Virus record (IMG/VR): IMGVR_UViG_3300035703_000020 | Location: 1 to 64,000 of that record | Source of the DNA: a virus | DNA length: 64,000 nucleotides | Strand: one strand, 5' to 3' | Part shown: positions 23,606 through 37,372 of the stretch, one piece after another | Position numbering within the stretch: the stretch's first letter is position 1 | Layout: each line of letters begins with the position of its first letter | The notes under the pieces: generated by a model | Told to the model about the DNA's origin: nothing | The model's database searches: none | The model's input: only the letters and a program-made list of their open reading frames with translations | Program-made: the position numbers and the translations under genes

Positions 23606-24187
23606 ATGGAAGAAATTTGGGCTCCGATATGCGGTTGGGAGGGACTATATGAGGTATCAACCTTAGGCAGGGTACGTAGTTTGGACAGACTGGTTATAGA
23701 GAAGACCGGGAAGACCCGCCGAAGAAAAGGCCGGGTGATGGCCGCTGTCAAATCTGGAAAATACTTCGGTGTCACTCTTTCAAAGGGCGGTTGCGAAGTG
23801 AGACTGTATTTACATAGACTTGTAGCTGAGGCTTTTATTCCAAATCCGGAGAGCAAAGCCTGCGTTAATCATATTGACTTCAACAGAAGCAATAACGCAG
23901 TGGCCAATCTCGAATGGGTCACCTACGCTGAGAATAGTGCCCATGCCTTCGCCAATAAAAATTGGGAGAGTGCGGCGCCAAAGGGTTCCAACTGTAATTC
24001 AGCCAAATTGACTGAGGCTCTTGTGTATGAAATTCGAAGCAACTATGCGCCAAACAAAGCACTTGAACTCGCTGAAAAATACGGTCTCACGCGCGGCACA
24101 ATTTACCACATCATCAGCGGCCGCACTTGGGCTCATGTCCCTTTCCCTCCCGATTATCAATACTCAATCCGCCCACGCAAGCGGTAG
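23606..24187 (+). CDS. HNH homing endonuclease (NUMOD4-HNH)
   Basis: A 193-residue protein: NUMOD4 domain (IWAPICGWEGLYEVSTLGRV), HNH_3 core (LHRLVAEAFIPNP, VNHIDFNRSNNAVANLEWVT) and a C-terminal helix-turn-helix (AKLTEALVYEIRSNYA, AEKYGLTRGTIYHIISGRTW). Such enzymes nick at homing sites and spread themselves. The gene is visibly AT-richer with different codon use from its neighbours, a sign of transfer. Almost no non-coding DNA surrounds it, so it is not carried in a group I intron. Confidence 0.9.
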   Translation: MEEIWAPICGWEGLYEVSTLGRVRSLDRLVIEKTGKTRRRKGRVMAAVKSGKYFGVTLSKGGCEVRLYLHRLVAEAFIPNPESKACVNHIDFNRSNNAVANLEWVTYAENSAHAFANKNWESAAPKGSNCNSAKLTEALVYEIRSNYAPNKALELAEKYGLTRGTIYHIISGRTWAHVPFPPDYQYSIRPRKR

Positions 24188-24452
24188 ATATGTCACGGCT
24201 ACCGTCTATCATCAGATGTTCCACGGGAGGACAACGTACTGCGGTGGGACGTACTCCGACCACCGAGTGTCGGCCGCCCACCCGTGGCTAGCCTGCGGAA
24301 CGCGCGTCCTGGTGCAGCACAGGGGCAGGAGTCTCGTCGTCCCGATCACCGACCGGTGCGAATGCACTAGTATCGACCTGTCCTACGAGGCGGCCCGCCG
24401 GCTCGGGATTCCTACGGACGGGATCGCGACGGTCCGGATCCGGGAGCTCTAG
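24045..24452 (+). CDS. Secreted RlpA-like double-psi beta-barrel protein
   Basis: A 135-residue protein. Residues 48-135 match the RlpA/DPBB fold (YVTATVYHQMFHGRTTYCGG, HPWLACGTRVLVQHRGRSL, PITDRCECTSIDLSYEAA with the catalytic-type Asp). Such domains are peptidoglycan lytic transglycosylases or glycan binders. The N-terminal 47 residues read as a signal peptide (AAALGLMSLSLPIINTQSAHA, cut after AHA) although they are encoded out of frame within the last 143 nt of the HNH gene. A shorter ATG at 24135 would give only a stub of a signal. Confidence 0.6.
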   Translation: MRQTKHLNSLKNTVSRAAQFTTSSAAALGLMSLSLPIINTQSAHASGRYVTATVYHQMFHGRTTYCGGTYSDHRVSAAHPWLACGTRVLVQHRGRSLVVPITDRCECTSIDLSYEAARRLGIPTDGIATVRIREL

Positions 24453-34226: not shown

Positions 34227-34769
34227 ATGATCAACAAGAAAGCTAACCAAAGCCAAAAGATGCAAGTACCCCAGGTCGACTTCTACTTCCGCGAGGGCGG
34301 CGAGTTCGTGACCCGCACCTCCAAGGACCTGTTCCTCGGCAAGCGCGTGGTGCTGTTCGCCCTGCCCGGCGCCTTCACCCCCACCTGCACCGAGCAGCAG
34401 CTGCCCGGCTTCGAGGCGGCCTACGACGAGATCCGGGCCCTCGGCGTCGACGAGGTCTACTGCCTGTCGATGAACGACGCCTTCGTGATGAACGCCTGGG
34501 GCGAGTCCCTCGGCATCGAGAAGGTGAAGCTGGTGCCCGACGGCAACGGCGCCTGGACCACCGCCGTCAAGACGGCCGTGGGCAAGGAGAACCTCGGGTT
34601 CGGCGTCCGCTCGTGGCGCTACGCCGTCGTGCTGAACGACGGCGACCTCGAGTGGAGCGGCGCCGAGGACGGCATGCGGAACAACGCCTCCGACGACCCC
34701 TACGAGGCGTCCACCCCCGAGGCCGTGATCGCCTACCTGAAGGCGGCGAAGGAGCAGCCCGAGGGCTGA
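34227..34769 (+). CDS. Peroxiredoxin (Prx5-type)
   Basis: A 180-residue thioredoxin-fold enzyme with the peroxidatic Cys54 in VVLFALPGAFTPTCTEQQLP, then YDEIRALGVDEVYCLSMND and FGVRSWRYAVVLNDGDLEW, the pattern of atypical 2-Cys Prx5-type peroxiredoxins. It reduces H2O2 and lipid peroxides using thiol donors. A shorter start at Met12 is possible. With Dps it suggests protection from oxidative stress during infection. A hairpin lies just after its stop. Confidence 0.88.
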   Translation: MINKKANQSQKMQVPQVDFYFREGGEFVTRTSKDLFLGKRVVLFALPGAFTPTCTEQQLPGFEAAYDEIRALGVDEVYCLSMNDAFVMNAWGESLGIEKVKLVPDGNGAWTTAVKTAVGKENLGFGVRSWRYAVVLNDGDLEWSGAEDGMRNNASDDPYEASTPEAVIAYLKAAKEQPEG

Positions 34770-34775
34770 GTTTCA

Positions 34776-34795
34776 CCGGGGACTTCGGTCCCCGG
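34776..34795 (+). terminator. Hairpin after peroxiredoxin gene
   Basis: CCGGGGAC-TTCG-GTCCCCGG, a perfect 8-bp stem with the stable UUCG loop. No T-run follows, so it may act as a processing or stability element at the head of the tRNA region. Confidence 0.55.
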
Positions 34796-34801
34796 CCGCA
34801 G

Positions 34802-34873
34802 TGGCGTGTAGTTCAGCGGAAGAACTCTCGACTGTTAATCGAGCTGTCGCAGGTTCGAATCCTGCCACGCCAG
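34802..34873 (+). tRNA. tRNA-Asn (GTT)
   Basis: Full cloverleaf of 72 nt: acceptor TGGCGTG/CACGCCA, anticodon stem CTCGA/TCGAG with loop CTGTTAA (anticodon GTT), T arm GCAGG-TTCGAAT-CCTGC, discriminator G as usual for Asn. CCA is not encoded. Confidence 0.93.
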
Positions 34874-34914
34874 TTTGTCCCCGAGGAGCCGATCACTCTG
34901 AAGACGGGACAAAA

Positions 34915-34974
34915 GCGAGAGCCCAGGACTTGGGGAATCGTCCGGACACGGGGGTTCGAATCCTCCACTCTCGT
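34915..34974 (+). tRNA. Truncated tRNA-like element A
   Basis: A 60-nt element with an acceptor-like stem GCGAGAG/CTCTCGT and a canonical T arm GGGGG-TTCGAAT-CCTCC, but only 28 nt between them, too few for D and anticodon arms. GGAC/GTCC and GTCCGGAC resemble the remains of an anticodon stem and a class II variable arm. No anticodon can be assigned. Confidence 0.45.
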
Positions 34975-35074
34975 CTTGCCGCAGGGGCGCCGGTTTGATC
35001 CCGGAACGCTAGCGGCACGTCGCCCCCGGAGTTTGCCGGTGTGGATGGGGGACGACGTAGTAAGAACCGGAAAT

Positions 35075-35135
35075 GGTGAGGGGTGGGCTGCCCGAGGATT
35101 TGAAATCCTCACTCTTTGTGGATCGCCCCTCATCG
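35075..35135 (+). tRNA. Truncated tRNA-Ser(TGA)-like element B
   Basis: Acceptor GGTGAGG/CCTCATC with discriminator G (the Ser discriminator) and a perfect anticodon arm GAGGA-TTTGAAA-TCCTC (anticodon TGA, Ser), but no recognisable T arm and a shortened D region; 61 nt in total. Either a decayed gene or a minimal tRNA. Confidence 0.45.
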
Positions 35136-35453
35136 ACCGAGGTAAGGAAAGCAAAAGGAGCATGGGAACCGAAAGGAGATACCGCACCTGCCTCACAACC
35201 ACCCGCTCTGCTTGGTCCGGAAACGTCCGGGCCGAGCATCGGGCCTAAGTCCTAGCTTGCTAGGCCAGGGGGATGGCCTCCCCTGCCAATTTGTAGGAAG
35301 TGCCATGCCTCTCCCCGGTCGCTGGCTGGGTGAAGCAGAAGAGGGCGGTGGCGCACTTGTTCACCGATGCTGGACTGATCGCCGCCCCTCCTACCACGAG
35401 CCCCCACCTCTGTGCGTCCTCGAGGCGTCTCACGTGCTAAATTGGGGCCTTCT
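35136..35453 (+). other. Non-coding stretch within tRNA cluster
   Basis: No convincing protein gene or complete tRNA. It contains hairpins such as CCTAG-CTTG-CTAGG and an inverted repeat around CCAGGGGGATGGCCTCCCCTG, and a paired GGGCGG/CCGCCC block near 35343-35388. These may be further decayed tRNA-like sequences or processing signals. Confidence 0.35.
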
Positions 35454-35499
35454 GCGGGGACCTGGTTGGTTCACCGGGGTTCGATTCCCTGGTCTCGCC
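35454..35499 (+). tRNA. Truncated tRNA-like element C (acceptor-T minihelix)
   Basis: A 46-nt element: GCGGGGAC pairs with GTCTCGC apart from one bulge, and CGGGG-TTCGATT-CCCTG is a canonical T arm; between them lies TGGTTGGTT, resembling a D loop. No anticodon arm. Confidence 0.3.
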
Positions 35500-35594
35500 T
35501 GCGGTCTGGACCCAGCATCTGCTGCGCGAGGACCGTTCAACACCCCTCAAGCCTATCCCGGGACGCCGGATGACGCTCAAACAGAGGGGTCACT

Positions 35595-35666
35595 GCCGCC
35601 GTAGCTCAGTGGTAGAGCACACCCTTGGTAAGGGTGAGGTCGTGAGTTCAAGCCTCACTGGTGGCT
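35595..35666 (+). tRNA. tRNA-Thr (GGT)
   Basis: Acceptor GCCGCCG/TGGTGGC, D arm with AGCTCAGTGGTAGAGC, anticodon stem CACCC/GGGTG with loop TTGGTAA (anticodon GGT), T arm GTGAG-TTCAAGC-CTCAC. 72 nt, no encoded CCA. Confidence 0.93.
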
Positions 35667-35707
35667 TCGGTACTCGTCTGGCAGATAGCCAGGAAGGAGG
35701 TCGAGGG

Positions 35708-35767
35708 AGATCGGTAACTCAGTTGGTAGAGGAGCTTGTGTCGCGGGTTCGAGTCCCGCCCGATCTC
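35708..35767 (+). tRNA. Truncated tRNA-like element D
   Basis: A perfect acceptor stem AGATCGG/CCGATCT, a D arm (ACTCAGTTGGTAGAG) and a perfect T arm GCGGG-TTCGAGT-CCCGC, but only 11 nt where the anticodon arm and variable loop should be. The deletion removes the anticodon exactly, leaving the other arms intact. 60 nt. Confidence 0.5.
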
Positions 35768-35771
35768 GCCC

Positions 35772-35843
35772 AGGGGATTAGCTCAGCGGGAGAGCGACGT
35801 GTTGACATCGCGTAGGCCGCCGGTTCGACCCCGGCATCCCCTA
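35772..35843 (+). tRNA. tRNA-Val (GAC)
   Basis: Acceptor AGGGGAT/ATCCCCT, D arm GCTCAGCGGGAGAGC, anticodon stem ACGTG/CGCGT with loop TTGACAT (anticodon GAC), T arm GCCGG-TTCGACC-CCGGC, discriminator A. 72 nt. Confidence 0.9.
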
Positions 35844-35846
35844 TTA

Positions 35847-35919
35847 GCTTCCTTAGCTATCTGGTGAAAGCACCCGACTCATAATCGGAGGCAGGCGAGT
35901 TCGATCCCCGCAGGAAGCA
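35847..35919 (+). tRNA. tRNA-Met or Ile2 (CAT)
   Basis: Acceptor GCTTCCT/AGGAAGC, anticodon stem CCGA/TCGG with loop CTCATAA (anticodon CAT), T arm GCGAG-TTCGATC-CCCGC with one mismatch, discriminator A. The G-C first pair argues against initiator tRNA; elongator Met and lysidine-modified Ile cannot be told apart by eye. Confidence 0.85.
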
Positions 35920-36178
35920 TCGTCCGCTAAGACGTAAAACTGGCCGCCCGGTCAACACTTCGGGGCAGTGCCGAACACCTCCACTTACCGCGGCTTGGCA
36001 ATCTCACGAGAAAGCAGTGGGGCATCTCGATGAGGGCGCCAACTTGGGCTCACAACCACGCGGTACCACGGGGGTGAAACAGAATCGACTGGCTGGGCGA
36101 ATGTTTGCAGACGCGAACAACATCGTAGCTTTCGAGCGCGCGACCGTGGCCGCCTAGGCCCATCGCCCGTGACGATAC
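35920..36178 (+). ncRNA. ssrA: Circularly permuted two-piece tmRNA
   Basis: Order is acceptor piece, intervening sequence, coding piece. P2 3' strand 35945-35954 pairs over 10 bp with 36090-36099; a 5-bp T-like stem 35959-35963/35971-35975 is followed directly by the acceptor strand CACCTCC (35976-35982), which pairs over 7 bp with GGGGGTG (36070-36076). The intervening loop is closed by TACCGCG/CGCGGTA. The coding piece has the tmRNA-like GAATCGACTGG and a tag ORF at 36113-36157 reading ANNIVAFERATVAA then TAG. Marine picocyanobacteria have permuted two-piece tmRNA with ANN...VAA tags. Odd: the T loop (GGCAGTG) is not canonical and the region before the tag is too short for PK1. Confidence 0.82.
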
Positions 36179-36180
36179 CC

Positions 36181-36215
36181 GGGAGAGTCTTCCATAGGCT
36201 CTCCCTTTCCTTTTG
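36181..36215 (+). terminator. Rho-independent terminator of tmRNA
   Basis: GGGAGAG (36181-36187) pairs with CTCTCCC (36199-36205) and is followed by TTTCCTTTT. It lies about 24 nt after the tag stop codon, as expected for the end of the coding piece. Confidence 0.8.
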
Positions 36216-36416
36216 GTTCACACTTTGCTGTAATCGGGCAAGATTATGGTGTCCCGTAGCGATACGAACCGCGGCCTTTATGAGGGGCCACCGCGCAACA
36301 GCGCGGGCGGGACTCGGGGGTGAAACGCCCCTTAAACAAACTGTGCCGTGGAGGAATGCGCCCTGAGACGGGCGAGTGACCGTCCTCTATACGGATGCCG
36401 AGTTCAACCCAATCTA
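36216..36416 (+). ncRNA. Unidentified hairpin-rich RNA or long leader
   Basis: About 200 nt without a credible gene but dense in stems: TAATC/GATTA (36231-36246), CGTA-GCGA-TACG with a GNRA loop (36255-36266), CCGCGC-AACA-GCGCGG (36291-36306), GGGCG/CGCCC (36305-36330) and CGCCC/GGGCG (36359-36374). It precedes the tail-lysozyme-like gene. It does not match RNase P, 6S or SRP RNA as I recall them. Confidence 0.4.
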
Positions 36417-37046
36417 ATGCTCCAAAGCCTTACACTTGCAGCCGCCCTCGCTGGGTCAGCTGCGACGTCCCTGGCCATGCTGCCTCTGCCGGCCGCGACC
36501 GCGGTGATCCCCTACTCGATCATCCAGGAAGAGCCGACGCAGGTGGCAATCCGAGAAGCCGCTCCTGAGACACCCAGAGAGGTCCGGCTGATCTGTAAGA
36601 GCTGCAACGCGAACGAGCAGATCGCGCTGCAGAAGCTCCAGGATCACGGGATCAAAGACAAGAACGCCCTGGCCACCATCATGGGCAACATCAGGCAGGA
36701 GTCCACGTTCCAGCCCGACGTCTGCGAAGGCGGCGCGCGAACGGGGTACCACGGGTGCCGCTCAGGCGGCTTCGGCCTGATCCAGTGGACATCCGAGAAC
36801 CGCTTCCGCGGCCTCGGCGCCCACGCCAGGCAGATCGGCGGGAACCCGTCCGCCCTCACCACCCAGCTGTCCTACCTCCTCGAGGAGGGCGACTGGAAGA
36901 TGATCGAGGACCGGATGATGACACCCGGGAAGACCATCGACGACTACATGCGCCTCGCGCGCAGGTGGATCCGCTGGGGCCACCACGGCGCCCGCACGTC
37001 CTTCGCCCACGACTACGCCGGCCGGTTCACCCGGGAGGCGGTCTGA
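36417..37046 (+). CDS. Secreted phage tail lysozyme-like protein
   Basis: A 209-residue protein. The ATG at 36417 gives a signal peptide (MLQSLTLAAALAGSAATSLA, Ala-rich). Residues about 85-205 match the Phage_lysozyme2/tail-lysozyme fold: DKNALATIMGNIRQESTF with the catalytic-type Glu, GGFGLIQWTSENRFRGL, LEEGDWKMIEDRMM and WIRWGHHGARTSFAHDYAG. It would cut peptidoglycan outside the cytoplasm. The frame is open further upstream, but that part belongs to the structured RNA region. Confidence 0.8.
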   Translation: MLQSLTLAAALAGSAATSLAMLPLPAATAVIPYSIIQEEPTQVAIREAAPETPREVRLICKSCNANEQIALQKLQDHGIKDKNALATIMGNIRQESTFQPDVCEGGARTGYHGCRSGGFGLIQWTSENRFRGLGAHARQIGGNPSALTTQLSYLLEEGDWKMIEDRMMTPGKTIDDYMRLARRWIRWGHHGARTSFAHDYAGRFTREAV

Positions 37047-37084
37047 TCATGATCTCTGTGGGGAGCCTCGGTTCCCCTTTCTTC

Positions 37085-37156
37085 GCCTTCGTAGCACAGC
37101 GGTAGTGCAGCTGTTTCGTAAACAGCAGGTCGCTGGTTCAAATCCAGTCGAAGGCT
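37085..37156 (+). tRNA. tRNA-Thr (CGT)
   Basis: Acceptor GCCTTCG/CGAAGGC, anticodon stem GCTGT/ACAGC with loop TTCGTAA (anticodon CGT), T arm GCTGG-TTCAAAT-CCAGT. 72 nt. A second Thr tRNA that reads ACG, a codon favoured in this GC-rich genome. Confidence 0.92.
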
Positions 37157-37171
37157 TGTTCCACACCACGC

Positions 37172-37372
37172 ATGCGGAACCACATCTGGAAGACCTGGGC
37201 CAGGGCCCTCGGCGAGAAGGCCTCGAAGCACAAGGGCGAGGCGGACGCCGTGGCGGCGATCCGGACGCTGATCTTCGCGACGTACCTCGTGACGAACGTG
37301 TTCATCGTGGCCGGCGTCGTCAGGCACTGGGACGGCGGGGCTTGCGCGCAAACAACATCCGAGAAGCTATGA
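37172..37372 (+). CDS. Small membrane protein, cyanophage type
   Basis: A 66-residue protein (MRNHIWKTWARALGEKASKH, AAIRTLIFATYLVTNVFIVA, GVVRHW) with one membrane segment at about 30-53. The opening NHIWKTWA and the closing VRHW are features I recall from a small protein found in many cyanophages. Function unknown. Confidence 0.68.
   Translation: MRNHIWKTWARALGEKASKHKGEADAVAAIRTLIFATYLVTNVFIVAGVVRHWDGGACAQTTSEKL

Follow-up and report, generated by a model that had tools for sequence, protein, structure and literature searches.

A predicted mosaic, circularly permuted tmRNA in the tRNA gene cluster of a cyanophage

The locus and its phage setting

The window, i.e. the whole stretch of 64,000 nucleotides analysed here, is part of a 149,878-base IMG/VR viral record. 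Two photosystem reaction-centre genes in the record identify the virus as a cyanophage, as does its DNA polymerase, which has 49% identity to the enzyme of the nearest isolate, Synechococcus phage S-CBWM1. A tRNA cluster extends over 34802-37156 and within it, with tRNA-Met (35847-35919) on one side and an endolysin-like gene (36348-37046) on the other, positions 35945-36157 read as a phage-encoded, circularly permuted two-piece tmRNA with a cyanobacterial-type tag (Table 1). The loop-closing helix, the tag reading frame and the terminator 24 nt after it, all named in the original prediction, were found at their predicted places. CCA is absent from the encoded acceptor end, which closes with discriminator A35983, and G36072.U35980 corresponds to the G3.U70 alanine identity pair. 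One promoter scan of 34700-37200 found no sigma-70-like promoter.

Table 1. Parts of the predicted tmRNA gene, 5' to 3'
Feature	Position	Strand	Remarks
5' leader of acceptor piece, AGACGTAAAACTGGC (also given as AGACGTAAAACT)	35930..35944	+	GACNTAAAACT common to S-CBWM1 and L069 tmRNAs
P2 3' strand, CGCCCGGTCA	35945..35954	+	10/10 pairs with 36090-36099; 5/10 pairs covary in cyanophage set
ACAC linker	between P2 3' strand and T arm	+	
T arm, stem TTCGG/CCGAA, alpha-type loop GGCAGTG	35959..35975	+	5/5 pairs; alpha_tmRNA alignment
T-stem strands	35959-35963/35971-35975	+	5/5 pairs
Acceptor 3' strand CACCTCC and discriminator A (35983)	35976..35983	+	7/7 pairs with 36070-36076
Intervening sequence, 86 nt, expected to be removed	35984..36069	+	closing helix in minimum-energy fold
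Loop-closing helix, 7 bp	35986-35992/36059-36065	+	
Acceptor 5' strand GGGGGTG and D-region AAACAGAATCGAC; coding piece starts	36070..36089	+	matches alpha_tmRNA and tmRNA_permuted models
Acceptor 5' strand	36070-36076	+	pairs with 35976-35982
P2 5' strand, TGGCTGGGCG	36090..36099	+	pairs with 35945-35954
7-bp hairpin TGTTTGC-AGAC-GCGAACA in PK1 position	36102..36119	+	z -2.4; also in L069
Tag reading frame GCG...TAG, ANNIVAFERATVAA	36113..36157	+	ANNIV-x-F-x-R type; frame without indels vs L069
Terminator-like hairpin, 24 nt past stop	36181..36205	+	also in L058, which has no tmRNA

Is the locus recognized by the existing tmRNA models? Over the whole 149,878-base record, Rfam alpha_tmRNA (RF01849) matched with 38.0 bits (E 1.3e-10) and tmRNA_permuted (RF04321) with 36.3 bits (E 6e-7), both on 35957-36088, i.e. 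on the tRNA-like part only, and no other place in the record reached a comparable tmRNA score. The two matches lie below the gathering cut-offs of 50 and 47 bits, respectively, of which the 47 bits of RF04321 are a detection threshold and not a structural feature, and the cyanobacterial model RF01851 (cyano_tmRNA) has no match anywhere in the record. An Rfam scan at gathering level did not find the tmRNA, and neither did ARAGORN. Compared with the permuted tmRNAs described by RF04321 and RF01849, the window shares the acceptor-before-coding order, the T arm with a GGC-G-loop, the acceptor helix and the core, and differs in its score of 36-38 bits, in its cyanobacterial-type tag and in the lack of the pseudoknot PK1. 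A covariance model built from six relatives, with the window left out, ranked the locus first in the window, though only at E 0.24, and aligned the acceptor half alone; this model is narrow, the intervening loop of the relatives being 6 nt long against 86 nt in the window.

The place of the tmRNA in the cluster has a counterpart in S-CBWM1 (L060, NC_048106.1), in which we found at 23885-24202 an unannotated, ordinary cyanobacterial-type permuted tmRNA with the tag ANKIVAFHRQAVSCA, detected by both ARAGORN and RF01851 (123 bits) and located close to the endolysin and tRNA-Thr of that phage. By its endolysin, 85% identical to that of the window, L058 is a closer relative than S-CBWM1; it has a 2OG oxygenase-like sequence in the tmRNA place, and its similarity to the window restarts at 36161.

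Several further elements were observed in the cluster. Ahead of the endolysin gene, 36161-36400 (+) is strongly conserved in L058 (84% over 950 nt, a span that takes in the gene as well), holds CGGGGGTGAAACGCCCC and is possibly a structured leader. The CGGGGGTGAAAC repeat near 36316, which we considered as a second tmRNA, was rejected, as it has no tmRNA match and is part of the leader common to L058. Upstream, 35708-35767 (+) is tRNA-like (40.3 bits), with acceptor, D and T arms and without an anticodon arm, and by eye we noted incomplete tRNA-like sequences near 34914-34976, 35067-35135 and 35453-35499; all of these are either relics or armless tRNA-like RNAs. Given that these neighbours look incomplete, decay in the cluster is possible. 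A gyrase-A search of viral contigs found none.

Helices, covariation and the resume-codon hairpin

The original prediction had proposed a 10-bp P2, a 7-bp acceptor helix and a 5-bp T-like stem, and these helices indeed form with 10/10, 7/7 and 5/5 pairs. For P2, whose ten pairs include G.U, random 10-mers from the region reach 10/10 at a frequency of 7e-5. P2 is missing from the single-sequence minimum-energy fold of the window, and we assign it based on its position and on covariation rather than on this fold.

Covariance support in related phages, the absence of which had been named beforehand as a potential refutation, is present. Eight distinct cyanophage sequences share the block order of the window; in them, pairing in the three helices amounts to 94.3% over 22 pairs, and 8 pairs show changes on both sides, a result equalled in 0/500 shuffles. 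A more diverse set of 12 phage sequences has 100% pairing in the T stem and the acceptor helix, with 24 double-change cells, and double-sided changes occur at 4/5 pairs of the T stem. Only sequences in which both the T stem and the acceptor helix are complete had been selected, so that the paired percentage of these two is partly built in; the pairing of P2 was no such condition, and more weight falls on the double changes. Together with the Rfam matches, this covariation supports the proposal of a permuted two-piece tmRNA, with the acceptor piece upstream of the coding piece.

PK1 had been proposed to be missing, and it is indeed absent, the gap between P2 and the resume codon being only about 12-13 nt. 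The prediction had passed over what stands in its place: a 7-bp hairpin whose 3' strand is opened by the resume codon GCG. The same hairpin is present in L069, while L247 has another one there, of 5 bp. The stability of these hairpins is modest evidence (z -2.4 for the window, -1.1 and -0.9 for the other two). In E. coli, tagging does not require PK1 and continues when PK1 is cut down to a hairpin (PMC4236655). A tmRNA that has a hairpin over its resume codon instead of PK1 offers a natural way to examine the purpose of PK1.

Origins of the tRNA-like and mRNA-like halves

The two halves of the predicted RNA point to different bacterial lineages, and we propose that it is a mosaic of an alphaproteobacterial-type tRNA-like domain and a cyanobacterial-type tag. 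The T loop GGCAGUG and the core AGAATCGAC are of the alphaproteobacterial-lineage type as modelled by Rfam, and the TTCGA-type T loop of cyanobacteria is absent. The earlier description of the T loop as non-canonical has to be revised accordingly, since GGCAGUG is an ordinary alpha-lineage loop and not a degenerate cyanobacterial one. The tag, on the other hand, is not of the alpha type (AND-type) but follows the ANNIV-x-F-x-R pattern, in agreement with the cyanobacterial-type tag originally proposed. This pattern, typical of cyanobacteria, retrieved at least 119 genomic loci and is almost confined to cyanobacterial genomes among the matches listed. With the RF01851 form and S-CBWM1, the window has in common the ANNIV-type tag and the host group and, with S-CBWM1, also the place in a phage tRNA cluster, the leader GACGTAAAACT and the acceptor end CACCTCCACTT; however, the host and S-CBWM1 forms have the TTCGA-type T loop and PK1, and the window has neither. 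The leader GACNTAAAACT occurs in none of the 119 genomic tag sites among the matches listed.

Are such mixed forms confined to the window? In the viral collection we found 25 further loci with an alpha-type block and a TGG-type P2, which comprise 7 distinct sequences, and the surroundings of the two loci examined, L067 and L247, match Synechococcus phages best. These marine cyanophage loci (L067, L091, L247 and 22 others) combine, as the window does, an alpha-type domain with a cyanobacterial-type tag; most have the ACAC linker, which was seen only in the cyanophage group, and ARAGORN misses them where it was run. They differ from the window by an intervening loop of 6 nt instead of 86 nt and, except for L247, by a longer stretch ahead of the resume codon. 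The marine alpha-type domain had no match in 50,697 phage records.

The mosaicism is most direct in L091 (alpha-type) and L098 (cyanobacterial type), the mRNA-like parts of which are 95% identical over 142 nt, and identical past the resume codon, whereas their tRNA-like parts are unrelated. The mRNA-like part of the window likewise resembles that of other cyanophages. It is closest to that of L069 (72% over 83 nt), the sole match in a stricter search with an mRNA-part pattern, and the T loop of L069 is TTCGATT. Hence the tRNA-like and mRNA-like parts differ in their histories. The exchange itself is seen in the marine relatives; for the window we infer it because its two parts disagree when compared with L069 and S-CBWM1, and there is no equally close direct sister that carries the other domain. 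The alpha-type block of the window differs at 5/48 positions from that of L076, and at 5 also from those of L006 and L048, all three of which carry other tags; it may stem from the same exchange as the blocks of the marine group or from another.

Two-piece tmRNAs in 53 phages were reported in 2022 (PMC9004378), and another source gives 79 unique phage tmRNAs, adding that every permuted gene in its database is recovered by tmRNA_permuted (PMC11915505). Permuted phage tmRNAs are thus already known; what appears to be new is the mixed form, which the usual gene finders miss. Phage Melnitz and other phages with two-piece tmRNAs are, like the window, cases of a permuted tmRNA in an aquatic phage and of an alpha-type tmRNA whose phage infects a host outside the alphaproteobacteria; the Melnitz tmRNA was described as alpha-type and no mosaic was reported, whereas the window joins an alpha-type domain to a cyanobacterial-type tag (PMC9004378). 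In the literature searched, which covered few subscription papers, we found no description of a mosaic tmRNA of this kind. Since ARAGORN overlooks such genes and Rfam misses them in part, phage tmRNAs are probably undercounted.

Predicted function and alternative readings

We consider it probable that the cyanophage RNA is a working mosaic permuted tmRNA, its function being predicted from its parts. We infer that it is expressed, processed, charged and used for tagging. Host tRNA-processing enzymes would trim the transcript around the tRNA-like domain, whereby the loop 35984-36069 is lost, and the acceptor piece (ending at about 35983) and the coding piece (from 36070) would be held together by the acceptor helix and P2. 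CCA and alanine would then be added by host enzymes, the latter guided by G3.U70 and discriminator A, and host SmpB would bring the tmRNA to stalled ribosomes, where translation would restart at GCG 36113 and append A-ANNIVAFERATVAA, marking the product for host proteases. Neither an SmpB gene nor a gene for a CCA-adding enzyme was detected in the record, and therefore the host would have to supply both. The plainest guess for the benefit to the phage is that ribosomes which have stalled on host mRNA during its decay are rescued; another suggestion is that host proteins are tagged selectively (PMC9004378).

Could the locus instead be a decaying, non-functional relic of a former phage tmRNA? 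The Rfam scores under the thresholds, the lack of PK1, the long intervening loop, the anticodon-armless tRNA-like sequence in the same cluster and the missing tmRNA gene at this place in L058 would all fit such a relic. Yet the three helices, the alanine identity pair with discriminator A, the tag frame and the hydrophobic, degradation-type VAA end are intact, pairs covary, the hairpin is common to L069 and the tag departs from the L069 tag without any indel, all of which makes decay unlikely. We give considerably less credit to a decoy, i.e. an RNA that would block host trans-translation, through binding to host SmpB or to stalled ribosomes, instead of performing it. An RNA of phage DS6A that comprises little beyond a tRNA-like domain does inhibit tmRNA (PMC4131195, PMC11915505), and the resume codon can be closed in a hairpin here, but a decoy would have no need of the intact tag frame and degradation-type end that are retained.

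The origin by capture from the host, as first proposed, is not supported as stated. A simple capture of the host cyanobacterial tmRNA followed by drift would account for the cyanobacterial-type tag and for the cyanobacterial-type permuted tmRNA of S-CBWM1; however, the alpha-lineage T loop and AGAATCGAC core were found at 0/119 genomic tag sites among the matches listed, the alpha-type domain is present in 25 phage loci, and the L091/L098 swap shows exchange, not drift, which together render simple capture highly improbable. Chance resemblance in a GC-rich tRNA cluster, to which scores under curated thresholds might point, was rejected as practically negligible in view of the E of 1.3e-10 over the whole record and the covariation in relatives.

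For the mosaic tmRNA, we suggest that recombination joined an alphaproteobacterial-type tRNA-like domain to a cyanobacterial-type tag. The permutation puts the halves of the domain adjacent in the gene, and therefore one short exchange can swap it. Tentatively, we speculate further that the permutation makes the tRNA-like domain a portable cassette, which cyanophages swap between alpha-type and cyanobacterial-type versions, giving rise to mosaic tmRNAs including a minimal form with the resume codon in a hairpin and not behind PK1, and that a domain unlike that of the host might let the phage run or bias trans-translation itself. tmRNA genes can be mosaic, with tRNA-like and message-like halves of separate histories, and such natural chimeras could serve to find out which part is read by SmpB, which by alanyl-tRNA synthetase and which by the ribosome.

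Two side observations concern other phage RNAs. Many cyanophage tmRNA tags (L061-L114) have unusual ends (TALV, TVSV, DELVTA, ELATA) and not the AAPVAA of the host, and the degradation signal may be altered in these phage copies of the tag. A few bases 5' of tRNA-Thr, an abiF-RNA-like hairpin lies at 35543-35590 (+), scoring 32.5 bits with RF03085 (E 3.3e-5 over the record; cut-off 37 bits). No Abi_2/AbiF protein gene was found in the record, and an AbiF gene was found in 0/16 tested records with the element. In C. difficile, abiF RNA acts in trans against the AbiF toxin and neutralises it (PMC12373285), so that a solitary copy in a phage could mimic this antitoxin and counter the AbiF of the host. 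The same element recurs in about 20 further viral contigs, in most cases next to tRNA genes, and the stem of L274 shows compensatory changes.
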